42,163 nucleotides of DNA from positions 1 through 42,163 of IMG/VR virus record IMGVR_UViG_3300040751_002463; one strand, 5' to 3'. A program made the position numbers and the translations under genes. The notes beneath the pieces are model-generated. The model worked only from the letters and a program-made list of their open reading frames with translations. It made no database searches and was not told the DNA's origin. The stretch's first letter is position 1; every line of letters begins with the position of its first letter. This DNA is from a virus. Shown piece after piece: positions 2-34,358 of this stretch.

Positions 2-3000
2 GGCGAGCAGTATAGAGTTGGTCAAATTGTCCGCAACGGCGACAACTTCTTTAGAGTAAAAGTAACACACACTGGTGCTGGATTTAATTTAGATAACTTT
101 ACTAGACTAGCAGAGTTACCAATTGAAGGCGGCGTTGAAGGTGTTATTAGAAGAAACTTTGAACTTGATGCGACACAATTAAAGTACGGAACATTAATGC
201 GTACACCTCAAGAAGTTATCGACTTCCTATTAGGATACGGACAATGGTTAGAATATAAAGGGTTTTCTTTTGATAATTTTAATCGTGAAATTGAAACTAT
301 TGAAAACTGGGAACTAAGTGCTAGGGAGTTTTTATTCTGGACCACACAGAACTGGAGTGCAGGTGCATTACTTACACTTTCACCTAGTGCAAGCAATTTA
401 AAATTTAGTAAAGACTATGCAGTTGTTGATAACATCTTTGATAATTTTTATGATTATACATTATTAAAAGCAGATGGACAAAAATTAAGTGAAAACTTTG
501 CTAATACTATTAGAACAAATCAAAACGAATTTGGATTAAAACTTAAAAATACTGCTGATGGAATATACTTTTTAAAACTTCCATTAGTACAAAAAGAACA
601 CGTTGTATTAATTGATAATACAACAGTCTTTAATGATACAATTTATAGTCCAGCATCTGGTTATAGACAAGCACGTATTAAAGGTGTTGGCTATCGTACT
701 AGCGGTTGGAATGGAAGTTTTGATGTTCCTGGCTTTACGTACAATGATGTTAGAATTAAAGACTGGGAAGAAAATACTGATTATGCTATTGCTGATATTG
801 TAAAGCATAAAACATTTTATTATAGTGCTAAAAAGAAAATTCCAGGAAGTTTAAATTTTGATGATACAGAATGGTACAGATTACCTCAAGAACCTAAATC
901 AGAACTTATTCCAAACTTTGATTATAAAGCAAATCAGTTTGCAGACTTTTATGATCTTGATACTGACAACTTCGATAGTGAACAACAACGTATTGCACAA
1001 CATTTAATTGGATATCAAAAGAGACAATATTTAGAAAATATTATTCCTGATCCAGTTAGTCAATATAAATTCTATCAAGGATTTATTCAAGATAAAGGTA
1101 CACAAAATAGTTTAAGTAAATTGTTTGATGCTTTGTCTAATACAGAAAATTCAAGTTTAGAATTTTTTGAAGAGTGGGCATTTAAAGTAGGTCAATATGG
1201 AGCAAGCGGTGGCTTTGAAGAAGTTGAATATTTAATTGACGAATCAAAGATGCGTTTACAGCCACAGCCATTCCAGTTGGTACAAAATATAGATCCACAA
1301 GCAACAGACTTAGTATATAGATATGCTAAAAATGATGTTTATTCTAAACCTGAAAATTATAATCATACACCATTCCCAACTAAAGATTTAAGCGATTCAG
1401 ATTCGTATATTAAAACTGCTGGGTATGTTGCTGAAGATGATATTGATTTTAAATTTACAAACTACGATAGTATTTTAGACTTTTCTGTAAAATCAGTTTC
1501 AGTAGGTCAGTATGTTTGGGTTAGTAAACGTGGACAATCGTGGGACGTTTTACGACAAACTGAAACACCATTCAAGGTTAAAAGTATTATTAATAGTGAT
1601 AGTTCAAGTTCTATTGAGATTGAACTTAATAGAGTCCCGCAATTTGAAAAAGATGACATTATTGGTGTACTAGGAACAATACCAGATTCAGAAAGATTTT
1701 ATAAAGTTAAACGAGTAAGTCTTAATATTGTATATGCTGAAACTACAGGAGAAGTACCTGACGTTCCAGAAGCAAACGGATTCCTTGTTAAACTTAACTC
1801 AGTAAGAGTTCCGTCATTGACAGATGTTAATGCAGTTGTTACCCGAGATAATTATTCAGCAAATGAGCGTGTTTGGGTTGATTCAGATGAAGTTAACCGT
1901 TGGACTGTTTTAGAGAATACAAACAATTATAAATTAAATCAAAAAAGTTATAATGCTACACTCGATGGAGTGTTTGGCAGTGATACTAGACGTTTTGGAT
2001 CAAGCATTTCTGCTAACGATATTAACACAGTAGTTGCCGTAGGTGTTCCTAATCCTACTAACACTAGTTTAGGTAGAGTAGACATTCACTATAGAGCGGC
2101 AGAAAACTTGAATATGATTCAATCACAAGTACTTGACTGTCCTCCAAACTTGTTTACAGGTGGCGAAAGTTTTGGTAGTTCTACAGCAGTAAGCACTGAC
2201 GGTAAGTTTATTGTAGTTGGAATTCCTTATGCTGGCAATGTTAAAACAACATACAAAGGTATATTTGATCCTGTTTCAACATATCAACAAGATGACATTG
2301 TACAGTATACTAATCAATTCTGGAAAGCAAAAACAACAGTATTTCCAAGTGATGACAGTTTAGCATATCCAAGTTTTGCATCTCATGTTAACGCAGTTGT
2401 CGGTACAGATGACGACGGAGTCTATGATAACCTTTGGTTAATTTTACGAGGAAACTTTACATTCCAAGAAGAAGTAACTGATCACGTTTTAATTAGAGCC
2501 CAATCAGTTCAATACGAAGGAAGTGCAGTTGGCGACAAATTACAGTTAATTTGGAACTCTAAAAATACTAGATATCCATCAGGTGTTAATCCATTTAATG
2601 ACAGCAATATATTATCATCAGACTTCTTTACAGGAGAACACATCATTGAAGAAAAGGTTGATGATATACTATTAGTTGACAATACACAAGCAATTCCAGA
2701 TATTGGAGAAACAATTAGCAGTGATATTGCATTAGGTATTGTTGTATACAAATATACAACTGGTGACAATAGAACACTTATCTATGTTAATGAAACAAAT
2801 GGCGATTTTGCAGATGAAGGTACATTAACAGTTGGCGATATTAATATCGGTAGTTACGAACGTGCAGTACAACAACCTAATGATGATCTTGCAGGTTGGT
2901 GGAAAATTCCAGTCGGTCAAACATTTAACGTAACACAAACTATTGAAACTAAACCATATTTAATTGTTCAAGACATTATTAAACAAGCAGAAGTTCGTAC

Positions 3001-6000
3001 AGTTAATTATTGGGAAAATGTTTATAACATTGTAGATGACGCTGATCCTGGAGTTCCGTCATATATTGAAACATTAACATGGAATAGTGAAGCAGGATAT
3101 GAAATCTCAGACAAGTGGGTATTCAGATTACCTAAAACACTTGAAAATGATCTTACAGCACCGAACGATGAATTTCAATTTTGGTTTAATGAATATCGTA
3201 ATGCAGATGGAATTGTACAAGAGCCATCAGTTATTGCTCCTGAATTAGACCACGATTATCTGAATAGAACAACTCACAGAGTTTATGATATCTGGGACGG
3301 TTGGGCGAATGTAAACTTAACTAACTTTGATAATAGTGGTTCGCCAACACCAGGCGATCCTGACTACAATCCCAATTATGGTAATCCGTATATTCCAGTT
3401 GTTGGCGATATTGTAAGAGATAACGATACTCTTGCAACAGGTGAAGTCATGTATGTCGAAAAGGTGTTTAATAACTTAAGACTCTTCCTTAGAAATACAA
3501 CAGGAACATGGAAGAAAGGTAGTGAATTTGGGAACATTTCAAGTTTAAGTATAGTTGAAGGTTCACAAGGTGCAGGAACTATTAGACTTGTTGGTACTAC
3601 AATAGGAGTATATTTAACAAACAATACAGTGGGTCCACTTATTGTTATTGATAGAGGCGAAAACCTTACTCCAGGAAGTACTAGAACATTACAAAATTTT
3701 GAATACTGGGTTTATAAACAAACAGTAATACAAGGTTCTCCAAGAGAGGCAAATCCACCTTCATTATCAAATAATGATTGGACTAGAGTCTATAACATAC
3801 CTGTAACTGAAACAGGGATAGCAAGCGGACTTGTGCGTCAAGGAGCATATGCAGTTTACGAAAGAAATGCTAGTAACTTCTATGTATTAACAAACGTCTA
3901 TACAATGCCAGATAGTACTAACTACAAACATCTTGGAGCAACTATAGATTTAATTACTCGACCAGATGGAAGTCGTGCAATTTATATTTCAAGTAAGGGT
4001 AATAACACATTTGCAGAACCTGGTAGAATTAATATTGTTAATTACGATGAGTCACTAGGCTGGCAATTAGGTTCAGATGAAAACTATCGTGGAGAACACG
4101 ATCCGACTATTACATATTACGAAGGTGAATATGTAAAATATGCAGAAGAAATTTATCAAGCAACTACTAATGTTTTACCTAGAGCATTTAATTTAGCAGA
4201 CTGGGTGTTAGTTGAAACAGGCGTTGACTTAAACGGATACATTCCTAACAATACAGGATTTATTGTTGGCAATGATAGTGCATTAGAAACTTCTAATCTA
4301 TTACAGTTTGGATCAAATTATGATGTAAGTAAAAACGGACACGTATTAGCATCAGTAGTTAAGTATGGCGATCAAGTTGACAGTGCATTAAGTACTCCTA
4401 AACTTGCGATTTACAGATTAATTAACGGACAGTTCCTTTGGGATCAGTTAGTTGATTCGGAGAAAGTAGATATTAACTACGGATCAAGTGTTGCTGTTTC
4501 TGATGATGGCAAATTTATTGCTGTAGGTGCAACTAATTGGAGCACAACTTATACAAATGCTGGTGCAGTTTATCTATATGAATCAATTCACGGAACATTT
4601 AGTCTAGTACAAACACTAACTGGTCCAAAAGGATTACCAAATGAAAAGTTTGGTTCTAAAGTAAAATTTAGTGGAGACAGATTAGTTATTACATCATCAG
4701 GCGGAGATTCAACAAGCATAACAGAATTTGATGCAAACTTAACATTATTTGATAACGGAACAACATTGTTTAATACAACACTTACTGATACAGGTGAGAT
4801 ATTTGTATTTGAGTTAACAGGAAATAGATATGTTTATGCTGATAAAATTAAAAACTCAGATCCAAATGTTGTATACTTTGGTGAAGTATTAGCAGTTAGC
4901 AATAATCACATTTATGCAGGATTACCTACTTACTTAAACGAAGAAGAAAATAGTTCTCCGGGCGCAGTATTTGATTATAGAAGCCCTTCAACAGGTAAGT
5001 TATGGACAAGAAAGCGTCAAGCAAGACCAGTTGTTGATGTTAACAAAATTAAAAGTGTTAGTATTTACAACAAACAAACTAATGTTGTAGATGAGTATCT
5101 TGATTATATTGATCCGCTACAAGGAAAAATTGCCGGACCGGCAGAAGTTGAATTATCATATAAAACTACATATGATCCTGCAAGTTATAATATTGTAGAT
5201 GATAGTGTAGTAGGGGTAGTTAAAGATGCTACTATTTTTAATACAGTTGATATAGTTGGTAAACTATGGTGGGATATTGATGCTGTAAGATTTATTAATC
5301 CTTATAGTAATACTGGAAATATTTTTAGTGTTACAAATCAGTTTAATACAATTTTTCCAGGTACTGAAGTTGAAATTTATGAATGGGTAGAGACAACATT
5401 ATTACCAAGCGAATGGGACGAAGATGCAGATACAGAAGAAGGACTTACACGCGGTATTAGCGGAAAATCTAAATACGGCGACAGTGCATATTCAACTAGA
5501 AGAGTATATGACGAACCTGCACAAAAGTTTACAAATTACAATTATTTCTGGGTAAGAAATAAAAAAACAGTTCCAGATGTACCAGGTAGATCAATTAGTG
5601 GTGCCGATGTTCAAGAATTAATTAGAGATCCTAATGGTCAAGGATACAAATATGTAAACTTATTAAGAGATAATGAGTGGGCGTTACATAATTTAGGATC
5701 AAGTATTACAGGAAAAGATAGTGTTATTAAATTTAGTTATTGGACTATTGATAACCTTGAACAGAATATTCATAATCAGTATAATATTATTACTGATGGA
5801 CTTGGTACAAGTATTCCTAAATCAGACTTAGAAGAAAAATGGTTTGATAGTTTAATTGGGTTTGACAAACAAGGTAGAGAAATTCCTGACAGACAGTTAG
5901 GAAATCAAGACAAATACGGAGTACTAAACAACCCACGACAAACTATGTTTGTTAACAGAGTTGAAGCACTTAAACAAGCAATTGAAAGAGTAAACATTGT

Positions 6001-9000
6001 ATTAAAACAAAATGTATTAATTGATGATTTTGATTTATCAGATCTAGATAGTAATGATCCTAAACCAACCCTAGCATCAAGACTTTATGATTTGACAATT
6101 GATACAGATTTAGAACTTCAATATGTTTCAGTTAGTAAAGTAAGAACTGCACAACTTAATGCAACTATAATTGATGGTAAATTAATTAGAGTAGATATTA
6201 TTGACGGAGGAAGAGGCTATAAAACAAATCCAACAGTAGAGTTTGTTACTACAGCAGGAGAAAATGCTGAAGTTGCTCTTGAAATTAACAGCATTGGATC
6301 GGTTATTAGTGCAACAGTAATTAATCAAGGTTTAAATTACAGCAGTACAGACGTAATTACCGTACGTAAGTTTTCTGTGTTAGTTAATACAGACACTTCT
6401 TATGCTAATAGATGGTCAGTTTACGAGTACGTCGGCGGCAATTATCCGTGGAATAGAATTATTAGTCAAAGTTATGATGTAAGAGATTATTGGAGTTATG
6501 ATAATTGGTATGCAGAAGGTTATAATGAATTAACTAAAGCAGATTTCGTAATTGACGAAACATACGAATTAGAATCGTTAGATGACGTTTATGGTCAAAT
6601 TGTAAAAATTAACAATGTAGGTTCCGGCGGCTGGTTACTTTTACGTAAAATTGACGAACAAGTAAATGTTGATTATACTATTAACTATGAAACAATCGGT
6701 AGAGAAAATGCTACAGTACAACTATCTAAAGCATTGTACGATTATAGCGATGAATTAGTTGGTTATGATAGTTTTGGATATGATGATAGTGCGTTTGATT
6801 TAATACCAGTTCAAGAATTAAGAATTATACTGTCATCATTACGTGATAAAATATTTGTTGATGACTTAGCAATTCATTATAATGAATTATTCTTTGCACA
6901 AATGCGTTATATTTTAAGTGAACAACCATTTATTGATTGGGCATTTAAAACTTCATTTGTTAAAGCAAAGCATAATGTTGGTAAACTAAGAAAAGACATT
7001 ACATTTAATAATGACTTCTTAGAAAGTTATGAAGAATATGTAAAAGAAGTTAAACCTTATAAAACTAAAATTAGAGAATACTTATCAACATATGAAGGTG
7101 ATGATAATACTCAAACAATCGTTACTGATTTTGATTTGCCACCTTACTATAGTGATGCTAGAGGAAAAATTGTTCCTGTAGATACTAGAGTAGTAAATGA
7201 TACTGTACAAGTAAACGGTATCACATCTTATCCACAAAAGCACTGGTTAGAAAATGTAAGTTTTAAAATTAAAGAAATCAATATTTACGAAGCAGGTTCG
7301 GGTTATCTAAATGCACCATCAGTTGAAATATCCGGCGGCGGCGGCACCGGAGCCGAAGCAATAGCATATGTTGGCGGCGGAAAAATTACAGAAATTAAAA
7401 TAACAAATGCGGGCCAAGGGTATGTTTCCGCACCCACAATAGTACTTAACGGTGCAGTAACAGATGGCGGCACTGTTGGTAAAGCAAGTGCAATTATAGG
7501 CAATTCAAATCTAAGAACTACACACATGACTGTTAAGTTTGATAGAGTAACAGGAACATTCTTTATTACAACACTTGATGAAACAGAAACATTTACTGGA
7601 ACAGGCGGAAGATATAAATTTACTTTAAAATGGCCAGTAGATTTAAGAACAAATAAAATTAAAATTACTATCGGAGACGACGAAATACTGTCAAGAGATT
7701 ATACTATTACTAATGTTAATGACAGTAATGGTAGAACACATGATAGAAAAATAGGCCAAATTGTTTTTAATACTCCTCCTGCTAATAACAAAACTATAAC
7801 AATTGAGTATTTTAAAGATATATCATTATTAACTGCGGCAGATAGAATTAACTTATTCTACAATCCAACTACAGGACAGTTAGCAAATGACTTAGGGCAA
7901 TTACTTGACGGCATTGACTACGGTGGTGTTCAAGTTAAGAGTTTCAACTTTGGCGGTGGCTCGGGTTGGAGTGCAGATTCGTGGTTTACTTCTGCATATG
8001 ATACATATGATAATACATATGAAGATGAAGTATTCCGTTTAAGTGATGACAGTACAAAAATTTATGACTTTGCTAAAGCATTAGAAACAGGTATTGAATA
8101 TAATGTTTATAAAAATGGTATAAGAATTGATGATCCTAACTTTGGAACAGGAAATCCTGTTACAAATCCAAATGCAATCATCCAAAGTATTACTGGAGCA
8201 AGCCAAACAGGATTTATTTTAACTGATGATGGTACTATTGTTGGGTCTACGGTAATCAAATTTGATGAAGAGATTTTACCAACACAATCAGGCGATGTAA
8301 TTGTTATTCGCAAAAATACATCAGACGGTTCGTTTATTCCTGATCCAAGAGCATATGATACATTAATTACCGGCGGTGACTTAGCATATGCAACTGCTTC
8401 AGGTATAAATCCAGAAGATATTGTTATCGACGGTGACGGATTTGTTACACCTACAACATCTAAAGGACCAGAGGAACTTATTCCTGGACAAGTTCTTGAT
8501 ACATTAGATATTAAAGTATACGATAGAGTTGGTGAAGGCGGAAGTAGAATTGAAAGTGTAGCATATGTTGGAGATAATGTTACAAAGATATTTAACTATG
8601 ATGGTCAACCACAAAGTAAGTTTGCTATTTTTGTTAAAGTAAACAACATTGTTAGAACAGATTATACAGTAGATTATAAAAACAAAACAATAACATTTAC
8701 TTCAGCACCAGCAATTAATAGTTCTGTAAACATTATTACAATGAGCGGCAATGGTGAGGAAATATTAGATCTAGATACATTTACTGGAGACGGCTCAACA
8801 ATTCAATTCCTTACAAGAGTTGACTGGAAAGATGAACTTAACAGTTTAATCACAGTTAATGGCGAGAAAGTTGATTATATTTTAGAAACAACAGACAGTT
8901 CATATGATACTGCTAACAAAGTTGCAATTACATTTGGTCAAGCACCGGCTGAAGGTGCAGTAATTAATTATGGAATTTATGCAAGCAACGCACAAACATT

Positions 9001-11392
9001 TAGTGAAATTAAAACTGATAATATTAGATCAGATGGAAGTACATCAACATATGAATTAAGTGTAACACCGTTTAGTAGTTTACCTTCAAGTCATAACATG
9101 ATTGTAAGAGTTTCAGGTTCAGGATCAGCAGATGCAGAATACAACAACGGAGCAATTAGCAATGTTACTGGAGATGGTAGTGATTTCTTCAAACGTGAAG
9201 TTACAACTAACGGTGTAAGAATTATGGGTGCTGGCACAGTAGGCGGCCAAACAGCAGTTCCAGATGCGTGGTTAGAAAAAGTTGCTCGTATGTTTGAATT
9301 ATTTACAGATCCAACTGGTGCAGGTATTAATCAATCATACCAAAGAGCGTTAATTAAAACATTAAGAGGAGATGCTGGAACGTATCACGCAGGCTTACCG
9401 ACTATACAAAGAGTAGCAAGAGGTGCAGGAGCAGATTACACTCCAAACTTCTTAACTGACCAAGGTGTTATTGATTGGAACTTAACTCCATTGTTTGACA
9501 CTCATGTACAAAATGACATGGTGTGGTATTTGAATTCAACTGGTAGTGGTTATGGCGACGGTGATCAAGACGCACAAGAAGTTATTGAACACGTATTCCA
9601 CACACTTCATATGCACGGTTTACCTGCAGATGACATAAAATTATATGAGTTCTTAGCCGCTGATTGGCAGTCAGGTGATTTGTATGCGGCAATGGAAGAA
9701 GCATACGATGCTGGCAAGTGGGATCCATCAGGTTACCAAGCAAATCCAGATGATTGGAAAACAATCGCAGATGCGTTTGAAGTAGCGGCAAAAGAATACT
9801 TGTATCTACTAAACTTTTGTATGTTTGAATATACAAGTTTATGGGACGGCGGAAGTCTTGCTCCAGAGTGGTCAGATGATATGCGTACCCAAGCAGGTAT
9901 TCTAGCAAACAATCCATTAGGTTATGCTTTCCACAACACATACATTGCTCCAGTAATTAGTAAGCCATCACTTGCTACTATTAGAAGCATATTCCAAGAC
10001 GGTAATACACCAGCACAAGACGATCCAAGTCAAGCAGGAGCATCAGGATATGTAGTTGATACGCCAACTGGTGATAGAATTCTTAATGCAGGATACAACG
10101 AATCATTTATTATTGATGACAGAGTAGAATATGCATTACGTAACTGGCAACAACCAGGCGGTACATTAGGTGCTAATGATATCTTAGTATTATTGAACGG
10201 CGTAGAACTTACATATACTATAGATTACATTTTCCGTCCTGCAAACTCTAGTGTTGAAATTTTTGAAAACGTTAAAGTTCCTGGAGCAAGACTAGATGTG
10301 TATGTAACTGTTGACGGAGAATACACAGTAAGTGGAAATACAATTACACTTAACACAGTTCCACCTGAAGGCGAAATCTTTAGAGTAACACATTTTAGTA
10401 GACACGATATTCAAGAAATTGATCGTAAAAATTATGACATTGTAACAAGAACTACACTAAACTTTGAAAGTGCTGGCGATATTGAATACAATCATCTGAA
10501 AGCAGGTCTAATTAAACTTGAGAGACAAACTATTGATGCTGAGTATGTTTGGATTATTGTTAATGGAAGGATTCAAACACCTAGTGTTGATTATAAAGTA
10601 ACAAATGACAGATTCTTTGTGCGTATGGCAACACCGTTAAATGAAAACGATGCTGTTGAAGTAATTCAGTTTGCTGAATCAGGACCAACAGTTTCTAAGT
10701 TTGGATTTAGACAATTTAAAGATATGTTGAATAGAACAGTTTATAAACGTTTAGGTGATGTGAATAAGTATAGACTACAAGCAGATTTAAAACAGTTTGA
10801 TAAAGAAATTTTAGTTGAAAACGGTGAAACCATGTTTATACCTGATAAAGCCAATAATGTTCCAGGTGTTGTATTTGTTAACGGCGAGCGTATTGAATAT
10901 ATGGTTAAAGACGGTAACAGTTTACAACAGTTACGTAGAGGTACATTAGGTACAGGTGTTAGAGACATTCATAATGTAGGAGACGAGTTGTTTGATCAGG
11001 GATTCCAACAAACAATTCCATACCAAGATAAAACATTAGTTAATACATATGAAGGTGATGGCACTACATCAGAATTTACACTAGATTGGACTCCGGCTAG
11101 TGTTAATGAATTTGAAGTATTTGTTGGTGGCAAGCGTCAACGCAAGAATGCTATGTATATGTTTGACCCAACGGTTGATCAAGATTCACCAGAAGGTGAC
11201 GTATTGCAACCAGCGCAATATAGCATTTTAGGTAATACAATGACGCTATTAACTGCACCAGCAGATGGAGTTCGAATAACAGTAATTAGAAGGGTTGGAA
11301 AAGTATGGAATGACCCTGGAAAAACACTAGGTAAGACAGAAAATGCTATCGCACAGTTCTTAAGAGCGGAAGAGGTTGACTTACCTAAATAA
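2..11392 (+). CDS. Giant repeat-built virion/tail structural protein, 5'-truncated by window edge
   Basis: The frame is open from base 2 with no stop, so the ATG at 197 is internal and the gene begins outside the window; at least 3796 residues are visible (numbered here from base 2). Visible units: short Trp/Tyr-rich carbohydrate-binding-like segments (about 1-38, 252-297, 752-782, 1362-1417), FG-GAP-like blades with FGSS..A.S.DGK...VG patterns (about 657-749, 1492-1570, 1623-1662), Gly-rich GxGYxxxPT beta repeats (about 2048-2122, 2423-2503), several GDGST-type beta units toward the end, and a helical insert at about 3080-3332 with an HxxHxxHxH cluster at 3197-3205. The early segment FLLGYGQWLEYKGF (from about residue 75) resembles, from memory, very large structural proteins of marine T4-like phages. 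Likely a baseplate or fibre-network component; exact virion position unknown. First gene of the late structural block; stop overlaps the next late promoter. Confidence 0.5.
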   Translation, partial: GEQYRVGQIVRNGDNFFRVKVTHTGAGFNLDNFTRLAELPIEGGVEGVIRRNFELDATQLKYGTLMRTPQEVIDFLLGYGQWLEYKGFSFDNFNREIETIENWELSAREFLFWTTQNWSAGALLTLSPSASNLKFSKDYAVVDNIFDNFYDYTLLKADGQKLSENFANTIRTNQNEFGLKLKNTADGIYFLKLPLVQKEHVVLIDNTTVFNDTIYSPASGYRQARIKGVGYRTSGWNGSFDVPGFTYNDVRIKDWEENTDYAIADIVKHKTFYYSAKKKIPGSLNFDDTEWYRLPQEPKSELIPNFDYKANQFADFYDLDTDNFDSEQQRIAQHLIGYQKRQYLENIIPDPVSQYKFYQGFIQDKGTQNSLSKLFDALSNTENSSLEFFEEWAFKVGQYGASGGFEEVEYLIDESKMRLQPQPFQLVQNIDPQATDLVYRYAKNDVYSKPENYNHTPFPTKDLSDSDSYIKTAGYVAEDDIDFKFTNYDSILDFSVKSVSVGQYVWVSKRGQSWDVLRQTETPFKVKSIINSDSSSSIEIELNRVPQFEKDDIIGVLGTIPDSERFYKVKRVSLNIVYAETTGEVPDVPEANGFLVKLNSVRVPSLTDVNAVVTRDNYSANERVWVDSDEVNRWTVLENTNNYKLNQKSYNATLDGVFGSDTRRFGSSISANDINTVVAVGVPNPTNTSLGRVDIHYRAAENLNMIQSQVLDCPPNLFTGGESFGSSTAVSTDGKFIVVGIPYAGNVKTTYKGIFDPVSTYQQDDIVQYTNQFWKAKTTVFPSDDSLAYPSFASHVNAVVGTDDDGVYDNLWLILRGNFTFQEEVTDHVLIRAQSVQYEGSAVGDKLQLIWNSKNTRYPSGVNPFNDSNILSSDFFTGEHIIEEKVDDILLVDNTQAIPDIGETISSDIALGIVVYKYTTGDNRTLIYVNETNGDFADEGTLTVGDINIGSYERAVQQPNDDLAGWWKIPVGQTFNVTQTIETKPYLIVQDIIKQAEVRTVNYWENVYNIVDDADPGVPSYIETLTWNSEAGYEISDKWVFRLPKTLENDLTAPNDEFQFWFNEYRNADGIVQEPSVIAPELDHDYLNRTTHRVYDIWDGWANVNLTNFDNSGSPTPGDPDYNPNYGNPYIPVVGDIVRDNDTLATGEVMYVEKVFNNLRLFLRNTTGTWKKGSEFGNISSLSIVEGSQGAGTIRLVGTTIGVYLTNNTVGPLIVIDRGENLTPGSTRTLQNFEYWVYKQTVIQGSPREANPPSLSNNDWTRVYNIPVTETGIASGLVRQGAYAVYERNASNFYVLTNVYTMPDSTNYKHLGATIDLITRPDGSRAIYISSKGNNTFAEPGRINIVNYDESLGWQLGSDENYRGEHDPTITYYEGEYVKYAEEIYQATTNVLPRAFNLADWVLVETGVDLNGYIPNNTGFIVGNDSALETSNLLQFGSNYDVSKNGHVLASVVKYGDQVDSALSTPKLAIYRLINGQFLWDQLVDSEKVDINYGSSVAVSDDGKFIAVGATNWSTTYTNAGAVYLYESIHGTFSLVQTLTGPKGLPNEKFGSKVKFSGDRLVITSSGGDSTSITEFDANLTLFDNGTTLFNTTLTDTGEIFVFELTGNRYVYADKIKNSDPNVVYFGEVLAVSNNHIYAGLPTYLNEEENSSPGAVFDYRSPSTGKLWTRKRQARPVVDVNKIKSVSIYNKQTNVVDEYLDYIDPLQGKIAGPAEVELSYKTTYDPASYNIVDDSVVGVVKDATIFNTVDIVGKLWWDIDAVRFINPYSNTGNIFSVTNQFNTIFPGTEVEIYEWVETTLLPSEWDEDADTEEGLTRGISGKSKYGDSAYSTRRVYDEPAQKFTNYNYFWVRNKKTVPDVPGRSISGADVQELIRDPNGQGYKYVNLLRDNEWALHNLGSSITGKDSVIKFSYWTIDNLEQNIHNQYNIITDGLGTSIPKSDLEEKWFDSLIGFDKQGREIPDRQLGNQDKYGVLNNPRQTMFVNRVEALKQAIERVNIVLKQNVLIDDFDLSDLDSNDPKPTLASRLYDLTIDTDLELQYVSVSKVRTAQLNATIIDGKLIRVDIIDGGRGYKTNPTVEFVTTAGENAEVALEINSIGSVISATVINQGLNYSSTDVITVRKFSVLVNTDTSYANRWSVYEYVGGNYPWNRIISQSYDVRDYWSYDNWYAEGYNELTKADFVIDETYELESLDDVYGQIVKINNVGSGGWLLLRKIDEQVNVDYTINYETIGRENATVQLSKALYDYSDELVGYDSFGYDDSAFDLIPVQELRIILSSLRDKIFVDDLAIHYNELFFAQMRYILSEQPFIDWAFKTSFVKAKHNVGKLRKDITFNNDFLESYEEYVKEVKPYKTKIREYLSTYEGDDNTQTIVTDFDLPPYYSDARGKIVPVDTRVVNDTVQVNGITSYPQKHWLENVSFKIKEINIYEAGSGYLNAPSVEISGGGGTGAEAIAYVGGGKITEIKITNAGQGYVSAPTIVLNGAVTDGGTVGKASAIIGNSNLRTTHMTVKFDRVTGTFFITTLDETETFTGTGGRYKFTLKWPVDLRTNKIKITIGDDEILSRDYTITNVNDSNGRTHDRKIGQIVFNTPPANNKTITIEYFKDISLLTAADRINLFYNPTTGQLANDLGQLLDGIDYGGVQVKSFNFGGGSGWSADSWFTSAYDTYDNTYEDEVFRLSDDSTKIYDFAKALETGIEYNVYKNGIRIDDPNFGTGNPVTNPNAIIQSITGASQTGFILTDDGTIVGSTVIKFDEEILPTQSGDVIVIRKNTSDGSFIPDPRAYDTLITGGDLAYATASGINPEDIVIDGDGFVTPTTSKGPEELIPGQVLDTLDIKVYDRVGEGGSRIESVAYVGDNVTKIFNYDGQPQSKFAIFVKVNNIVRTDYTVDYKNKTITFTSAPAINSSVNIITMSGNGEEILDLDTFTGDGSTIQFLTRVDWKDELNSLITVNGEKVDYILETTDSSYDTANKVAITFGQAPAEGAVINYGIYASNAQTFSEIKTDNIRSDGSTSTYELSVTPFSSLPSSHNMIVRVSGSGSADAEYNNGAISNVTGDGSDFFKREVTTNGVRIMGAGTVGGQTAVPDAWLEKVARMFELFTDPTGAGINQSYQRALIKTLRGDAGTYHAGLPTIQRVARGAGADYTPNFLTDQGVIDWNLTPLFDTHVQNDMVWYLNSTGSGYGDGDQDAQEVIEHVFHTLHMHGLPADDIKLYEFLAADWQSGDLYAAMEEAYDAGKWDPSGYQANPDDWKTIADAFEVAAKEYLYLLNFCMFEYTSLWDGGSLAPEWSDDMRTQAGILANNPLGYAFHNTYIAPVISKPSLATIRSIFQDGNTPAQDDPSQAGASGYVVDTPTGDRILNAGYNESFIIDDRVEYALRNWQQPGGTLGANDILVLLNGVELTYTIDYIFRPANSSVEIFENVKVPGARLDVYVTVDGEYTVSGNTITLNTVPPEGEIFRVTHFSRHDIQEIDRKNYDIVTRTTLNFESAGDIEYNHLKAGLIKLERQTIDAEYVWIIVNGRIQTPSVDYKVTNDRFFVRMATPLNENDAVEVIQFAESGPTVSKFGFRQFKDMLNRTVYKRLGDVNKYRLQADLKQFDKEILVENGETMFIPDKANNVPGVVFVNGERIEYMVKDGNSLQQLRRGTLGTGVRDIHNVGDELFDQGFQQTIPYQDKTLVNTYEGDGTTSEFTLDWTPASVNEFEVFVGGKRQRKNAMYMFDPTVDQDSPEGDVLQPAQYSILGNTMTLLTAPADGVRITVIRRVGKVWNDPGKTLGKTENAIAQFLRAEEVDLPK

Positions 11393-22730: not shown

Positions 22731-22972
22731 AAATAAGATATTATCATAATATTGATGGTTGGCGTTGGCTAGGATTTGTATTAGCAATGGTTAGTGCATT
22801 TTTATTAAGTGGCGGTAATCCTGCAATACAATGGTTAGGATGGGGCATCGCTTGCTTTAGTTGTAGCATATGGATTTACATGGGATGGAAAGATGGTGAT
22901 ACTCCTAGGGCATTAATGGAGTTAATGTATTTGCTTCTTGCTATAAGAGGCGTTTGGAATTGGGTTCAATGA
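22727..22972 (+). CDS. Small three-helix membrane protein (81 aa)
   Basis: Three hydrophobic stretches are visible: about 11-29 (GFVLAMVSAFLLSG), 33-54 (GWGIACFSCSIWIYMGW) and 62-80 (LMELMYLLLAIRGVWNW). A short charged loop KDGDTPR connects the last two, and Trp is very frequent at the interfaces. The look recalls one repeat of PnuC-type transporters, a resemblance too weak to name a substrate. It is the only obvious integral membrane protein in the accessory region. It is coupled at both ends by ATGA overlaps, so it is co-translated with the GT-like protein and the radical SAM enzyme. It might anchor or feed the pathway at the host inner membrane. Confidence 0.5.
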   Translation: MKIRYYHNIDGWRWLGFVLAMVSAFLLSGGNPAIQWLGWGIACFSCSIWIYMGWKDGDTPRALMELMYLLLAIRGVWNWVQ

Positions 22973-24336
22973 GTGAATTAGACAGAATTAAAACAGTAAT
23001 GCCAGAAATTGATAAAATTTCTCCTTCATTCTGCTTGGCTAAATGGCATCATGTTACTATCTATTTGCAAACAGGCGAAACACACAGTTGTTATCATCCA
23101 GCACCTCACAAGATTCCTTTAGAAGGGTTAATAGATAATCCAAGTCAATTGCATAATACTCCGCAAAAGAAACTCGAACGTAAAGAAATGTTAGCAGGAT
23201 TAAAACCTAGTGGTTGTCAATACTGTTGGAACATTGAATGTATGGGTAAAGATTACATTAGCGATAGACATATTAAAACAGCAAGTATTCATACACCAGA
23301 ACGTATTGAAGAAATTACAAGTAATCCTTGGGACTATAATATTAATCCCGAATATATTGAAGTAAACTTTAGTAATGAGTGTAATTTTAAATGCGGTTAT
23401 TGTCATCCTAAGTTTAGTAGTAGATATTGGAACGAAATTAAACAACACGGACCATATAAAGATAGTACAGCACATCGTAACGATATTGACTGGATAGAAT
23501 TATATGAAGAAGAATCTAATCCTTATGTAGAAGCATGGTGGAAATGGTGGCCTGAAGTTAGTAAGACATTGAACATCTTACGTGTTACAGGTGGAGAGCC
23601 TTTGATGCATAAAAGTACTTGGAGGCTTTTTGAAGAATTAAAATCAAATCCAAAGCCGCATTTAAATATTGAACTTAACAGCAATATGGGTGTAAAGCCT
23701 GCACTAGTTAAAAAATTAACACAAGTCGTAAAAGAACTTAGAGAAACTAATTGTATTGCAAGTTTTAAATTATATACAAGTATAGATACATGGAGTAACC
23801 GTGCAGAATATACACGTACTGGATTAGATTTAAAAATTTGGGAAACAAATTTAGATTATTATCTATCCAACACACCCTGGCCTGTAACATTTATGATTAC
23901 ATTTAACATATTCTCTGTTACAAGTTTCAGTTCTTTGTTAGAAAAAATATTAGAATGGCGTAAAAAATATAATACAGATGAACAAACAAAATGGCAACGT
24001 ATAAGGTTTGATACGCCATACCTAACTGATCCTATTCAGTTTGATATAAACATACTTCCTAAAGATGAATTCATGCCTTATATGAAAAAGCACTTAGAGT
24101 TTATTGTTAATAATTTAGATGACACAAACAGAACTAAATTTAGTAGTTTGGAATATGAAAGATTTAGGAGAGTAGTTGACTATATGGAAACAACAAACTA
24201 TTCTGAGAAAAAACTATTAAACGGAAGAAAAAACTTTCATACATGGTTTAGAGAATACGATAAAAGACGCAATACTAATCTTGTAGAAACGTTTCCTGAA
24301 TTTAAAGAATTTTACAATTTTTGTAAAACTTGCTAA
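22969..24336 (+). CDS. Radical SAM enzyme with N-terminal four-Cys (twitch/SPASM-like) module (455 aa)
   Basis: Start ATG 22969 overlaps the previous stop (ATGA); a TTG at 22954 is not needed. The radical SAM cluster is C138-x3-C142-x2-C145 (CNFKCGYC), with VTGGEP about 70 residues on. Ahead of it lie C22, C41, C83 and C86 (C-x18-C-x41-C-x2-C), the same layout as in the enzymes at 34330, 37186 and 41040, suggesting an auxiliary iron-sulfur cluster placed before the barrel. Such proteins are called twitch-domain radical SAM proteins. They cleave SAM to a 5'-deoxyadenosyl radical and abstract hydrogen from a substrate, here unknown. The C-terminal 180 residues form a helical extension. The last 35 bp overlap the convergent gene. 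Confidence 0.5.
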   Translation: MSELDRIKTVMPEIDKISPSFCLAKWHHVTIYLQTGETHSCYHPAPHKIPLEGLIDNPSQLHNTPQKKLERKEMLAGLKPSGCQYCWNIECMGKDYISDRHIKTASIHTPERIEEITSNPWDYNINPEYIEVNFSNECNFKCGYCHPKFSSRYWNEIKQHGPYKDSTAHRNDIDWIELYEEESNPYVEAWWKWWPEVSKTLNILRVTGGEPLMHKSTWRLFEELKSNPKPHLNIELNSNMGVKPALVKKLTQVVKELRETNCIASFKLYTSIDTWSNRAEYTRTGLDLKIWETNLDYYLSNTPWPVTFMITFNIFSVTSFSSLLEKILEWRKKYNTDEQTKWQRIRFDTPYLTDPIQFDINILPKDEFMPYMKKHLEFIVNNLDDTNRTKFSSLEYERFRRVVDYMETTNYSEKKLLNGRKNFHTWFREYDKRRNTNLVETFPEFKEFYNFCKTC

Positions 24337-28194: not shown

Positions 28195-29133
28195 ATGAAT
28201 TATAACAACATCGTTATGTGGTCAAAGCATTGGAGTCTAACCAACTTCTTGAAGACTATTGACAATAATACAAATTCTAATATTGTAATATTAGGTGCAG
28301 AAGAATTTAGTATGTTAGGTTGGGAAAATTATCCTAATCAAAAAAAAGTTAATAAGCATATTAAAGGAAAGAATGTTCATTTTGTTGCAGGACATTTTGG
28401 AGGCAACAATAACTTTTGGCCTAAGTATGGAAATTTGATTGTTTGGAAAAGTTTTTGGCCGGCAAACACAGTTTACGAATTTAACAAATTTAATCATTCA
28501 ATTTCTAATAAAGATATATCAATTCCATTTATTAGTATGAACAACCAACCTTGGCAACATCGTTGTCTAATGATGGATACACTTGCAAAACATAACTTAA
28601 TTGATAAGGGTAGTATTAGTTGGAATAATCTTATTAATGATTATGATTGGAAGTATTGGAAACAAGAACGATTAATTATTGATAAAGAGTATGCTAGTAC
28701 AACTGCTCAATACAGTACGTTGCCAAATGATTATAATTTTAGTTTAGTAAGTCTAGTTAATGAATCAACAATGGAAACAATGTTTCCTACAGAAAAGACT
28801 TACGCTCCTATATATTATAAGAAACCATTTTTGGTTTTTAGTGTACAAAACTATCACAAGATGTTAAGTGAAGAATTTGGATTTGAAATGTATGATGAAT
28901 TATTTGATTATAGTTTTGATTCAGAGTCAAATCAAGAAAAACGTGCAGATATGATTGCAATTCAAATTAGAAATTTAGTTAATCAAAACTATAACGATCT
29001 TTATAAAAAGGTTGCACAAAAAGTAGAAAGAAACTATAATAAACTAATATCTATTAGTTTAGATAAAAGTCGTGTTCCAAAAATTGTATTGGAATGCGGT
29101 GCGTATAAAAAATTAATTGAGGTTATGAAATGA
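28195..29133 (+). CDS. GT-B-like glycosyltransferase, paralog of 24302-25447 (312 aa)
   Basis: The C-terminal half carries SLVNEST, MFPTEKTYAPIYYKKPFLVFS and EFGFEMYDELFDYSF, the same order as the VNETR, SEKTFNAMLYGRPF and GFKTFDSLWNEDYD segments of the minus-strand protein. The N-terminal half differs: VILGAEEFSMLGW, VHFVAGHFGG and WPKYGNLIVWKSFW. It is therefore a divergent two-half transferase, probably binding its nucleotide sugar through the C-terminal half. The ATG at 28195 is preferred (GAG upstream); a GTG at 28186 would add three residues. It heads a plus operon that runs to 37206 without a gap and couples to the sugar dehydrogenase by ATGA. Donor and acceptor are unknown. Confidence 0.5.
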   Translation: MNYNNIVMWSKHWSLTNFLKTIDNNTNSNIVILGAEEFSMLGWENYPNQKKVNKHIKGKNVHFVAGHFGGNNNFWPKYGNLIVWKSFWPANTVYEFNKFNHSISNKDISIPFISMNNQPWQHRCLMMDTLAKHNLIDKGSISWNNLINDYDWKYWKQERLIIDKEYASTTAQYSTLPNDYNFSLVSLVNESTMETMFPTEKTYAPIYYKKPFLVFSVQNYHKMLSEEFGFEMYDELFDYSFDSESNQEKRADMIAIQIRNLVNQNYNDLYKKVAQKVERNYNKLISISLDKSRVPKIVLECGAYKKLIEVMK

Positions 29134-30323
29134 GTATTATTGGATATATTGGTGTAGGTAAATTAGGTGTACCCTGTGCTGAGGAAATTGTTAAGAAAGG
29201 TCATAAAGTAAATGGATATGACATTTCGCCAATTGTTTCTGATTTAATTAATCAGAAAGACACTATTGAAGAAACTGTTAAAGATGCTGATATTGTATTT
29301 GTTGCTGTTCCAACACCTCACGATCCTGCATATGATGGGAAACGTCCGACAAGTCATTTAGAACCTAAGGATTTTAATTACGATATTGTTAATACAGTAT
29401 TAGAAGAGGCAAACAAATATATGAATAAAAAACAGTTGCTTGTTTTAATATCAACTGTATTACCTGGAACAACACGTAGAGAATTTGTACAACGTGTAAC
29501 TAATACTAGATTTGTTTATAATCCTTACTTAATTGCAATGGGTACTGTAGGTTGGGATATGATTAATCCCGAGATGATTATGATCGGTACTGACGACGGT
29601 AGTGAAACTGGCGATGCAAAACAGTTACGTGATTTTTATGATACCATAATGGAAAATAATCCTCGTTATGTAATTGGAACATATGATGAGTGCGAATGTA
29701 TCAAAGTATTTTATAACACATTTATTTCAACAAAACTAAGTCTTGTTAATATGATTCAAGATGTAGCCGAACGTCAAGGAAATATTAATGTTGACGTAGT
29801 TACTAAAGCACTTGCTGAATCAACAATGCGTATTATGAGTGATCGTTATATGACAGCCGGCATGGGAGATGGCGGAAGTTGCCATCCAAGAGATAACATC
29901 GCTTTACGTTTTATGGCAAAAGAACTTAATCTTGATTATGATATATTTGATAGCATTATGACAGCAAGAGAAGTGCAAGCAAAGAACCTTGCTAAATTTG
30001 TTGTTAAAACAAAAGAGAAATATGGTGGAAGTATTTTGTTAAATGGAGTTTCTTACAAACCGGGTGTTTCTTATACTGACGGAAGTTATGCATTATTAGT
30101 AGATTACTACATTCGAGAACTGGGTGAATCGGCAATTTACATTGATCCGTTAGTATCTGAAATCCCAAGTAGTGCATACAATCCTACTGGAGTAATTTTA
30201 TTGTGCCATCCAGAACCATATGTAGAGTATGGAACAGATTCTGTGTTTATCGACCCTTGGAGACAAATGAAACCTGACTCTAACTATATGGTTATTCATT
30301 ACGGGAATACAAGAAAGAAATGA
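29130..30323 (+). CDS. UDP-glucose/GDP-mannose dehydrogenase family protein (397 aa)
   Basis: The N-terminal Rossmann motif is IGYIGVGKLGVPCAEEI with GYD at 29-31 binding the NAD ribose. The central domain has YNPYLI at 130-135 and the helix ECIKVFYNTFISTKLS, whose K192 and N197 are the expected catalytic pair. The active-site cysteine C251 sits in GMGDGGSCHPRDNIAL, matching GGxCxPKD of the family. The C-terminal nucleotide-sugar-binding domain follows with LNGVSYKPGVSYTDGS. The product is slightly shorter than the usual 420-450 aa. It would oxidise the C6 alcohol of a nucleotide sugar to the acid in two NAD-dependent steps, supplying a uronic acid for the neighbouring transferases. The exact sugar cannot be told. 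ATGA overlaps on both sides. Confidence 0.5.
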   Translation: MSIIGYIGVGKLGVPCAEEIVKKGHKVNGYDISPIVSDLINQKDTIEETVKDADIVFVAVPTPHDPAYDGKRPTSHLEPKDFNYDIVNTVLEEANKYMNKKQLLVLISTVLPGTTRREFVQRVTNTRFVYNPYLIAMGTVGWDMINPEMIMIGTDDGSETGDAKQLRDFYDTIMENNPRYVIGTYDECECIKVFYNTFISTKLSLVNMIQDVAERQGNINVDVVTKALAESTMRIMSDRYMTAGMGDGGSCHPRDNIALRFMAKELNLDYDIFDSIMTAREVQAKNLAKFVVKTKEKYGGSILLNGVSYKPGVSYTDGSYALLVDYYIRELGESAIYIDPLVSEIPSSAYNPTGVILLCHPEPYVEYGTDSVFIDPWRQMKPDSNYMVIHYGNTRKK

Positions 30324-31141: not shown

Positions 31142-31815
31142 TTTTTATTAGTTATGGTGAGCCTCATGCTGATCAGAACTTTGAATTTTTAAAAAGTAAA
31201 TTTCCAATGGCAAAGCGTGTAAAAGATATAGAAGGAATACATCAAGCACATATACTTGCGGCAAAGAAATGTTTTACTAAAATGTTTTGGGTAGTGGATG
31301 GCGATGCAGTATTGCAAAACGATTTTAATTTTGATTACGAGGTTTCCGAGTGGGATTTAGAAACAGTTCATGTATGGAGAAGTCTAAATCCTGTAAACAA
31401 CTTGGAATATGGATACGGTGGGGTTAAACTTCTCCCTAGATCACTCACACTGAACATGGACACCACCGTACCCGACATGACAACAAGTATTAGTAGTAAG
31501 TTTAAAGCAATGCCTGAAACAAGCAACATGACTGTTTTTGACACCGACGAGTTTGCAACTTGGAAGAGTGCGTTTAGAGAATGTGCAAAATTAGCAAGTA
31601 GATCTATTAAAGGCCAAGTAGATGAAGAAACAGAAAAGCGTTTAGAAACTTGGTGTACTGTAGGAAACGGACAATACGGCAAATATGCTATTCATGGTGC
31701 TCTAATAGGAAAACATTGGGGAGAACAATATAAAGATGACAAAGAAATGTTATATAAAATTAATGATTTTAAATGGTTAAAAGAACAATTTAATGACTAT
31801 AGCGATTCCATTTAA
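31129..31815 (+). CDS. GT-A-like transferase family protein, paralog of 21831-22730 (228 aa)
   Basis: It shares the FISYGEPHADQNF, KRVKDIEGIHQAHILAA and WVVDGDAVL (D57-G-D59) segments with the 299 aa protein upstream. It lacks roughly 70 residues of the insert and the final extension of that protein, so this is the minimal form of the family. The DGD triad suggests metal-nucleotide-sugar binding. Later landmarks are SAFRECAKLASRSI and YAIHGALIGKHWGEQY, which mirror AGFREGVKMSL and WAVYGARLGTYM in the paralog. It overlaps the SGNH gene by 13 nt and the following radical SAM gene by 23 nt. The role is a guess beyond transferase-like fold. Confidence 0.5.
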   Translation: MYDIVFISYGEPHADQNFEFLKSKFPMAKRVKDIEGIHQAHILAAKKCFTKMFWVVDGDAVLQNDFNFDYEVSEWDLETVHVWRSLNPVNNLEYGYGGVKLLPRSLTLNMDTTVPDMTTSISSKFKAMPETSNMTVFDTDEFATWKSAFRECAKLASRSIKGQVDEETEKRLETWCTVGNGQYGKYAIHGALIGKHWGEQYKDDKEMLYKINDFKWLKEQFNDYSDSI

Positions 31816-32767
31816 AGATATTAACAAGTTCGGTCAACGCACAATGTTAGACACACAGTTGTTTAATGTTAGTTGGATACTTGGACGTTTTTGTAATTAC
31901 AAATGTAGTTACTGCTGGCCATATGCTAATACAGATAAACCTGATCATCAAGACTTAACCGTTTATAAAAATACTATTGATGAAATAAAACGTCAAGCAC
32001 GAGAAAATGGATTCACTGATTTTCATTTTAGTTTTAGCGGAGGAGAACCTACTGCCTATAAATACTTTGGGGAGATTATAGATCATTACTGTAGTGATAC
32101 AGTACCTGAATATCAAAGTATACACATGACTACAAATTTGTCACCGGGCAGTAAGTGGTGGAATACTTTTATAAAGAATACTAAGAGTTTACAACGTCGA
32201 AGTGTTACAGCAAGTTTCCATGCAGAGTTTGCTAATGAACAAGAGTTTGGAGATAAATGTCTTCAATTAATGAAGGACGGAGTATATGTTACAATTAATC
32301 AAGTTATGGTTCCAGAGCAGTTTGACGAGTATCTTGAAAGATGTCAAAGATTTGCCGACAGAGGAATCAATGTTACGGTTAAGCCGCAATCAGATCCTAC
32401 TGCGTCATTTGTGGTCAATAGTTACACGGAAGAACAGTTAAAAATTATGCAACAAGGATTTCCACAACATATACAAGATGAGGAAGTCTATCAGATTAAA
32501 TTAACAGATGGCATAAAGGAATATTATTTAGATCAAGCAGAACGCTTTAATGCTTTTGACTTTAACAAGTTTAAAGGTTGGACTTGCAATGCAGGGTATC
32601 AAAGTTGTATTATACGCGGTAATGAAGTTAAGAGAGCATACAGTTGTAAGGAAGAACCCTTAGGCACGCTACAAGACGGTTTTACGCTGTTTAAAGCACC
32701 ATCTAAGTGCGTTACTGATACTTGTGTAAGTAGTGCAGATAGCAAAATACCAAAGGTTCAACGATGA
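31793..32767 (+). CDS. Radical SAM enzyme, C-terminal four-Cys type (324 aa)
   Basis: The SAM cluster is C34-x3-C38-x2-C41 (CNYKCSYC) with the SGGEP motif in the next strand (HFSFSGGEPTAYKYF). The C-terminal end has C265, C285, C306 and C311 in a C-x19-C-x20-C-x4-C arrangement, plus a spare C272. The protein at 36301-37206 has exactly the same spacing, so these two are sister enzymes with a likely auxiliary iron-sulfur cluster at the end of the barrel (SPASM/twitch-like). It has a lone radical SAM barrel otherwise, in cytoplasm, substrate unknown. The start ATG lies inside the preceding gene; it couples to the methyltransferase by ATGA. Confidence 0.5.
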   Translation: MTIAIPFKDINKFGQRTMLDTQLFNVSWILGRFCNYKCSYCWPYANTDKPDHQDLTVYKNTIDEIKRQARENGFTDFHFSFSGGEPTAYKYFGEIIDHYCSDTVPEYQSIHMTTNLSPGSKWWNTFIKNTKSLQRRSVTASFHAEFANEQEFGDKCLQLMKDGVYVTINQVMVPEQFDEYLERCQRFADRGINVTVKPQSDPTASFVVNSYTEEQLKIMQQGFPQHIQDEEVYQIKLTDGIKEYYLDQAERFNAFDFNKFKGWTCNAGYQSCIIRGNEVKRAYSCKEEPLGTLQDGFTLFKAPSKCVTDTCVSSADSKIPKVQR

Positions 32768-33372
32768 AAATAGATATCGAAGACATAAAATTTTGGATGG
32801 ATGCAATTCGTAACAGCGAAGATAGAGATAGAATGCTAGATAGTTTTTGGGGAGGACAACTATTTTCTAAAAGATGGTTAGTAGAGCATTTAGAAAAAAT
32901 TTGTAGAATTCAAAATGCAAGTATAGTAATTCATGGCGGCTGGAATGGTGTATTAGCAAGTATGCTTTTTAATAGTAGTGTAGGTATTAAACGTATTATC
33001 AGTGTTGACATTGATCCTAAGTGTGAACAAATTGCATATACTATTAATAAAAGACATGAAATTGATGGAAAATTTAAAGCAGTAACTTGTGATATGGCAG
33101 AATATGAATATGAGTTCCATCCTGATATTATTATTAATACTAGTTGTGAACATATTACACAAGAAACTTATGACAAGTGGTTAGAAAATATTCCTAACAC
33201 TCCTACAATTATATTACAAAGTAATAATTATAATAAGTTAGAAGAACATATTAATTGTGTTAATAGTATTGAAGAGTTTAAAGATAAATCTAATTTACAT
33301 GATGTAACAGGCTTAGAATATAAACCACCTCATGTTGAATACACACGATTTATGTTAGTAGGAAGACCTTAA
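32764..33372 (+). CDS. Class I SAM-dependent methyltransferase-like protein (202 aa)
   Basis: A helical N-terminus (KFWMDAIRNSEDRDRMLDSFWGGQLFSKRWL) precedes the Rossmann-type SAM site: motif I is VIHGGWNGVLASMLF at about 55-69, motif II is ISVDIDPKC at 79-87, and the catalytic-strand end is DIIINTSCEHI at about 121-131. This combination, including the WMDAIRNSEDRDR start, is one I know as a frequent small methyltransferase of T4-like marine phages. It is small but complete for a class I fold. The substrate is not evident; a nucleotide-sugar or peptide made by the radical SAM neighbours is reasonable. It is tightly fitted between two radical SAM genes, ATGA before and TAATG after. Confidence 0.5.
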   Translation: MKIDIEDIKFWMDAIRNSEDRDRMLDSFWGGQLFSKRWLVEHLEKICRIQNASIVIHGGWNGVLASMLFNSSVGIKRIISVDIDPKCEQIAYTINKRHEIDGKFKAVTCDMAEYEYEFHPDIIINTSCEHITQETYDKWLENIPNTPTIILQSNNYNKLEEHINCVNSIEEFKDKSNLHDVTGLEYKPPHVEYTRFMLVGRP

Positions 33373-34358
33373 TGTATAAACTAAACGAAATACGAGCAAT
33401 CCATTTAGAAGTTACATCAAAGTGTCAAGCCTCTTGTCCTATGTGTGCTAGAAATTTACAAGGCGGCATACTAAATCCCTTCCTTAAATTAAACGAAGTT
33501 GATCTAGGAACTTTTGTTAACTGGATACCGAGAGATATTGTACGTCAACTAGATCGTTTGTATATGTGTGGTAACTTTGGCGATCCTATTATTGCAAAAG
33601 ATACACTTGAAATATTTAAGTATCTACGTGAAACAAACGAGTCAATTAATTTAAGTATGAATACAAACGGCAGTGCTAGAGATCCTAAATGGTTTAAAGA
33701 CCTTGCTAAACTAAATGTACGTGTTCGATTTGGTATTGACGGATTACAAGATACACATAGCAAATATCGCATTGGTACAGACTGGAATAAAATTATAGAA
33801 AACGCAAGGGCATTTATTAATGCTGGTGGATATGCTATTTGGGATATGTTAATTTTTAGTCATAATGCTCATCAAGTTGATGCTTGTAGAGATCTAGCAG
33901 GTACAATAGGCTTTAAAGAATTTTATAGTAAAAATACAAGTAGGTTTAGAGATGACGAATTACCTGTACTTGATAAAAATGGAAAACAAGTAGATGTATT
34001 ATATCCAACAGAAAAAAGTACAGAACAAAAAGATAAAATTAAACAAGTAAAAGCCTCAGAAGAAGTTTGTACTATCAAATGTAAAGTAAAAGAAGAACGT
34101 GCAATTTATATAGGTGCTAATGGAAACTTATTACCTTGTTGCTGGCTGGACCATGATTATATACAACCTACATCAACAAGTAGAATTGACTTTTTAAATC
34201 ATTTTGCAAATTACCCTAATTTGCATAGGAATACTATGCAAGAAGTGTTTTCTTCAAACTTCTTTAATAAAATAGAACAAGGTTGGAAAACTAATCCATT
34301 AAAAGAATGTAAAAAACAGTGTGGAACATATGACAGATTCAAAGAACAATTCAACTAA
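33372..34358 (+). CDS. Radical SAM/SPASM-type enzyme (328 aa)
   Basis: The SAM cluster is C18-x3-C22-x2-C25 (CQASCPMC) close to the start, with CGNFGDP taking the place of GGEP. The strand order and the SMNTNGSARD and RFGIDGLQD segments agree with SPASM-type radical SAM enzymes. Near the C-terminus lie C233, C237, C256/C257 (LLPCCW) and C313, C317, fitting one or two extra iron-sulfur clusters, and the NGNLLPCCW block is typical of SPASM. The third cysteine architecture in this region. TAATG joins it to the methyltransferase and its end overlaps the next gene by 29 nt. Reaction unknown; SPASM relatives modify peptides or small sugars. Confidence 0.5.
   Translation: MYKLNEIRAIHLEVTSKCQASCPMCARNLQGGILNPFLKLNEVDLGTFVNWIPRDIVRQLDRLYMCGNFGDPIIAKDTLEIFKYLRETNESINLSMNTNGSARDPKWFKDLAKLNVRVRFGIDGLQDTHSKYRIGTDWNKIIENARAFINAGGYAIWDMLIFSHNAHQVDACRDLAGTIGFKEFYSKNTSRFRDDELPVLDKNGKQVDVLYPTEKSTEQKDKIKQVKASEEVCTIKCKVKEERAIYIGANGNLLPCCWLDHDYIQPTSTSRIDFLNHFANYPNLHRNTMQEVFSSNFFNKIEQGWKTNPLKECKKQCGTYDRFKEQFN

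Follow-up and report, generated by a model that had tools for sequence, protein, structure and literature searches.

The stretch of DNA analysed here (the window, a 42,163-base virus record, IMG/VR IMGVR_UViG_3300040751_002463) carries a gene for a giant structural protein of the virion (matched by PHROG 10938 'virion structural protein' at E=1.7e-140), and a preliminary description had singled out window nucleotides 9241-9995, within that gene, as a helical domain, rich in Trp and Tyr, with a His cluster that might bind a metal. What is this segment, and how did it come to lie in a virion protein? Comparison with its viral relatives shows that it does form a distinct domain, although the limits first proposed were too narrow: the homologous unit (hereafter the module) comprises 308 residues (Table 1) and is horizontally mobile among phage tail and baseplate proteins. 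Its limits emerge from comparison with 96 distinct viral loci whose flanks are unrelated, in which the similarity sets in abruptly at (D)xEYNNG (residue 3046, nt 9137) and breaks off at SGYVVD (residue 3353, nt 10060). Compared to the rest of the carrier gene the module contains more His (2.3% vs 0.8%) and Trp (2.6% vs 1.5%) but, contrary to the first impression, no excess of Tyr, and its GC content is 41.2% vs 33.3 ± 1.8% (maximum 36.7%) in segments of the same length elsewhere in the gene. The EHVFHTLHMH motif lies exactly at the residues originally given for it, and the TSLWDGG and NPLGYAFHNTYI segments named together with it are both found in the carrier sequence.

The module is mobile among phage tail and baseplate proteins

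A tblastn search found the module in 85 phage records, all of them cyanophages and all 80-90% identical, with nothing weaker at E=10, while in IMG/VR 165 stretches match the module, the best 80 of which are 77-96% identical. Removal of duplicates left 96 distinct viral loci that are 74-96% identical to the window copy, and the 90 full viral loci (window included) represent 31 insertion contexts. The open frames around the matches are mostly unrelated to the window protein. Over the best 80 loci, carriers that are homologous giant proteins share 79-96% identity in the module vs about 28-47% in the flanks over long alignments, and the flanks of the remaining carriers have no long match to the window protein. 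The carriers include baseplate wedge proteins (PHROG 708, 13163, 17744 and 32294), tail fibres (PHROG 9729 and 15006), wedge-tail fibre connectors (PHROG 677), subtilases (PF00082, S8; phrog_9158/3677) and one concanavalin-like, lectin-like protein (Laminin_G in Pfam); a PHROG search of two further carriers, L013 and L014, gave no match. In the cyanophages Syn33, S-RIM2 and S-RIM12 the module lies inside a baseplate wedge subunit, in RB11-B and S-B43 inside a giant baseplate wedge initiator, and in locus L012 and its relatives it splits a subtilase, separating GHGTH from the region of the catalytic Asp. In several carriers the final residues of the module, SGYVVD, are also the C-terminus of the protein, and one phage copy (L115) stands alone.

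A single copy is present in 33 of the 34 viral records searched. The remaining record, that of L013 (G006), has in addition an incomplete copy, which runs on the opposite strand at the end of the contig (bases 3-311, profile positions 195-309). Linkers rich in Pro, Ala and Val (such as PAVPAVPG and GSPEIPAIPG) adjoin the module in L002, L004, L006, L014, L018 and L023 and could be hinges or short stretches of homology for recombination.

The most direct view of the movement comes from isolates in which the same wedge gene is present without the module, S-RIM12 RW_01_0310 and S-SSM5. Comparing these empty sites to the filled genes of S-RIM12 W1_08, Syn33 and S-RIM2 shows that about 319 codons (957 alignment columns) have been cleanly inserted in frame after a DATIG/DASVG segment and before LDEFNGK, and no target duplication is obvious. 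The position of the module also varies among the homologous giant proteins. On a tree of the module DNA the context has to change 44 times, against a minimum of 30 for 31 contexts, and well-supported branches of this tree separate copies that share a context. Copies in the unrelated genes of L105 and L106 are 97.1% identical in DNA, and those at the different sites of L015 and L016 have diverged by only 0.10 synonymous substitutions per site (dS). Across loci the GC content of the module (0.411 ± 0.018) is nearly independent of that of the flanks (0.371; r=0.06), to which constraint on the protein may contribute. The ratio of nonsynonymous to synonymous substitution rates (dN/dS) is 0.09-0.26 in the nonidentical pairs examined and mostly near 0.1, and therefore the module protein is being maintained by purifying selection. 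With unrelated virion proteins as carriers, and with presence or absence in related phages, the module behaves as a mobile accessory domain.

Ig-like domains, which are small beta-sandwiches, are mobile among phage virion proteins. BACON domains occur there as tandem repeats (PMC6949934), and the module resembles both in being an accessory surface domain of unrelated virion proteins but differs from them in its length of 308 residues, its mainly helical fold, its candidate active site and its 74-96% identity to the window copy across contexts. Domain exchange among phage tail proteins is likewise established (PMC10684548); the exchange of fragments among phage host-contact proteins is similarly recent, whereas here one identifiable module lies internally at many sites and is documented by empty and filled pairs at the level of isolates.

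Fold, conserved residues and candidate metal site

Searches of the module against Pfam, PHROGs and NCBIfam gave no family match, sequence and profile searches of the PDB gave chance matches only, and no paper on the module was found in the open-access literature, although it may have been described elsewhere. An AlphaFold2 model built from 22 similar sequences was poor (predicted local distance difference test, pLDDT, 64.6) and its fold search uninformative; it was replaced by a model built from 63 sequences with a mean pLDDT of 93.4 and a predicted template modelling score (pTM) of 0.92. This model consists of a short strand region followed by helices, in agreement with the helical domain first proposed, and Foldseek found no significant match to it in the PDB or BFVD (best PDB E 0.57).

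Among 104 aligned copies E148, E151, H152, H155, T156, H158 and E220 (module numbering) are invariant, so that the candidate helix reads E-H-x-x-H in every copy, and H160 is kept in 100; H84, outside the motif, is present in 101 of 101. As H152, H155 and H158 are invariant in 104/104 rows the motif is not a product of chance, and every close homologue keeps these histidines. The clustering noted in the preliminary description also holds in the model, where H152, H155, H158 and H160 share the predicted helix 142-160, while E220 lies on a later predicted helix (211-229). Since the invariant Glu and His residues sit on two predicted helices, as those of a metal site would, we infer that E151, H152, H155 and E220, with E148 and H158 nearby, form a predicted metal site in which E220 is the candidate third ligand and the metal is most likely zinc or iron.

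In its order of elements (strands, a helix with a His pair, a later predicted helix with the invariant Glu that is the candidate third ligand) the module resembles the gluzincin zinc peptidases, M1 and related families. M1 enzymes also rank 1st (6koz) and 3rd (6ifg) and the M1-type LTA4 hydrolase (4gaa) 7th in the Foldseek search of the PDB, although none of these matches is significant (E 0.57-1.9) and we take them as a lead only. The module has EHxxH in place of the gluzincin HExxH, TM-scores are at most 0.21, and hhalign against seven M1 sequences gave a probability below 1%, which indicates no relation. Membership of the known zinc peptidases is unsupported because HExxH is absent, and with neither a fold nor a profile match it was rejected; the earlier suggestion of a peptidase has no family support. 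The nearest precedent in concept is the YHYH domain, a predicted tail-associated metal-dependent hydrolase fused to tail and baseplate proteins of large phages (PMC7824862) and also listed for pelagimyophages (PMC7029224). Like the module it is a domain with conserved histidines in phage tail and baseplate proteins, but the YHYH Pfam model matches neither the window domain (E up to 1) nor the bacterial and other members (E up to 10), and the motif of the module is EHxxHTxH plus a distal Glu.

Bacterial relatives and possible function

The preliminary description had mentioned similar segments in secreted proteins of marine bacteria, and such relatives exist; they are the closest cellular ones of the module. 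One scan with two strict patterns over the genomes of 84,980 species detected five bacterial loci, 63-68% identical to the module, of which four are in marine actinobacterial genomes (Acidimicrobiia/Actinomarinales) and one, encoding a secreted protein, is in an Opitutaceae metagenome-assembled genome (MAG); no copy was found in the plasmid records searched. The actinobacterial proteins are lipoproteins that begin with a signal containing Cys, continue with an acidic or Thr-rich low-complexity linker and close with the module, which makes up their entire C-terminal globular part and ends in SGY. In L083 and L084 the module gene adjoins a short-chain reductase gene and a PPDK-like gene, as read from the sequences, and by this neighbourhood these copies are chromosomal. 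Directly upstream in both lies a conserved secreted lipoprotein of approximately 1300 residues with HEYEH (HExxH; L084 1688-5569, L083 1807-5709), a possible functional partner of the bacterial module gene.

In a class sample of 296 genomes eight matched, four of them with full or long modules, two with module fragments where a contig ends, and two with distant paralogues. The paralogue family (P0003), found in 13 of 42 Actinomarinales genomes, comprises uncharacterised secreted lipoproteins that are profile homologues of the module (97.2% probability) despite an identity of about 26%; they retain E148, E151, H152, H155, T156 and E220 but lack H158, H160 and H84, and pattern scans detected no viral relatives of them. 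A sample of 289 Verrucomicrobiota genomes held no module copy beyond the known one, and the paralogue profile retrieved only the known genome from a sample of the phylum Actinomycetota. Which way the module passed between bacteria and phages is unproven, because the actinobacterial sequences were chosen as the outgroup of the module DNA tree and L082 is placed among the phage copies, on a long branch. Altogether the interpretation in the preliminary description is partly supported, and the mobility of the domain in many unrelated phage tail proteins had escaped it.

The reading that we favour, and to which we would give about an even chance, is that the module is a metal-dependent enzyme domain displayed on the virion and a mobile accessory of marine T4-like phages. 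Phages keep the module in frame, either within a tail or baseplate protein at their disposal or as its C-terminal part, and from these carriers display on the virion would follow. In such a model the module would bind a metal through its invariant Glu/His set and, less certainly, catalyse the hydrolysis of a surface polymer or protein that belongs to the host or to the surroundings; this step is predicted to occur during adsorption and penetration, as for other tail-displayed enzymes. Action on surfaces is suggested by the tail and baseplate display together with the frequent company of subtilases and lectins. The module would probably move by homologous recombination between matching flanks and by illegitimate recombination at other sites, and no dedicated transposition machinery was seen within it.

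Several observations weigh against this model. Its metal and its catalysis are inferred, whereas the mobility is observed, and a domain that serves for binding could be conserved in the same way. The absence of a significant fold match in the PDB and BFVD makes the site unreadable from any known enzyme, and the HExxH of the gluzincins is missing. The virion location derives from carrier annotation rather than proteomics, and the Opitutaceae MAG contig could be contamination.

An extension of the enzyme model, which we offer tentatively, is that the module represents both a new fold and a new family of metal-dependent enzymes with an E-H-x-x-H...E site, a plug-in among exposed tail and baseplate loops; a nearly identical catalytic module, present also in the surface lipoproteins of marine actinobacteria, would then be exchanged among marine phages. 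It is also possible, though we do not think it probable, that the module is a mobile adhesin recognising a surface ligand that several marine hosts share, with the His and Glu residues forming a structural or ligand-binding metal site. Tail fibre, baseplate wedge and lectin-like carriers, bacterial relatives that are surface lipoproteins, and the lack of a known catalytic motif or fold would all suit an adhesin, but receptor-binding domains usually diversify, whereas the module is highly conserved with dN/dS mostly near 0.1 and its invariant polar residues are grouped on two helices.

We consider it unlikely that the module scavenges or presents metal, so that tail-bound iron or zinc exploits host metal uptake. 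This 'Ferrojan horse' idea, which PMC11705849 (on a marine phage whose tail fibre has potential iron-binding domains) and other papers mention by name, fits the invariant His/Glu cluster and the marine setting; however, there is a single compact site per copy and usually a single copy per genome, no link to a siderophore receptor was seen, and acidic residues are conserved as strongly as histidines. Also unlikely is a selfish in-frame element, intein-like or endonuclease-borne, that is tolerated without benefit to the phage. In-frame insertions in many unrelated proteins and clean empty sites are what such an element would leave, but Pfam reveals no recognisable nuclease family in the module, a stand-alone phage copy and chromosomal bacterial lipoproteins exist, the nameable carriers are virion proteins, nearly always with one copy per genome, and purifying selection is strong. 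Both the endonuclease and the intein readings were rejected, the latter because intein junctions need Cys/Ser at the N-terminal side and His-Asn followed by Cys/Ser/Thr at the C-terminal side, and we find D/PEYNNG and SGYVVD with variable residues, several carriers stopping exactly at the module end. Finally, an ancient part of tail proteins that was vertically inherited and lost in some lineages, although some carriers keep the same site across several loci, is refuted: the carriers are unrelated, homologous carriers hold the module at different sites, divergence is far greater in the flanks than in the module, the tree has 44 changes for the 31 contexts, and DNA identity across contexts reaches 97%.

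Coordinates, neighbouring genes and significance

Table 1. Location of the carrier gene, the parts of the module and other open frames in the window
Feature	Position	Strand	Basis or remark
Carrier, giant virion structural protein	2..11392	+	Open frame, 3796 aa visible, 5' end outside window
Mobile module, EYNNG...SGYVVD, residues 3046-3353, 308 aa	9137..10060	+	Abrupt homology ends
Invariant His84 of module (TYHAG)	9386..9388	+	Conserved 101/101
His/Glu helix, module residues 142-160	9560..9616	+	AlphaFold2 helix; E148, E151, H152, H155, H158, H160
EHVFHTLHMH motif, residues 3196-3205	9587..9616	+	Located in translated open frame
Second helix, module residues 211-229, invariant E220 (AKEYLYLLNF)	9767..9823	+	AlphaFold2
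Antisense open frame opposite module, 119 codons	9582-9941	-	No sign of gene
Radical SAM-like	22954-24336		PF04055
DegT/DnrJ-type aminotransferase, short, 196 aa	27566-28156		
UDP-glucose/GDP-mannose dehydrogenase	29130-30323		
Radical SAM-like	31793-32767		PF04055
Radical SAM-like	33372-34358		CxxxCxxC-type motif
Radical SAM-like	34321-35661		PF04055
Radical SAM-like	36301-37206		CxxxCxxC-type motif
Radical SAM-like	37186-38301		CxxxCxxC-type motif
Two adjacent similar repeat proteins	38268-40635	-	PYGE/LPFG-type repeats
Radical SAM-like	41040-42074		CxxxCxxC-type motif

Beyond the carrier gene the window holds unusually many radical SAM-like genes. Pfam confirmed PF04055 in the three of these open frames that were scanned, one of them with SPASM, and the likeness of the others is by motif only. 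The two adjacent repeat proteins look propeller-like by eye, and a Pfam scan of the one at 38268-39401 gave no match. The aminotransferase and dehydrogenase genes, both for sugar modification, lie close to the structural region.

Movement among phage virion proteins is already known for accessory domains, Ig-like folds for example. What is unusual here is a mainly helical module of 308 residues with a strictly conserved Glu/His site, moving among 31 contexts and with empty and filled sites in isolates. Its family is absent from the searched Pfam, PHROGs and NCBIfam and merits a model of its own. The module raises the testable questions of how a virion protein can take up a large domain in frame and stay functional, and of what benefit marine phages draw from a conserved, probably metal-dependent tail function, for which the filled and empty S-RIM12 isolates provide a natural comparison that needs no engineering.

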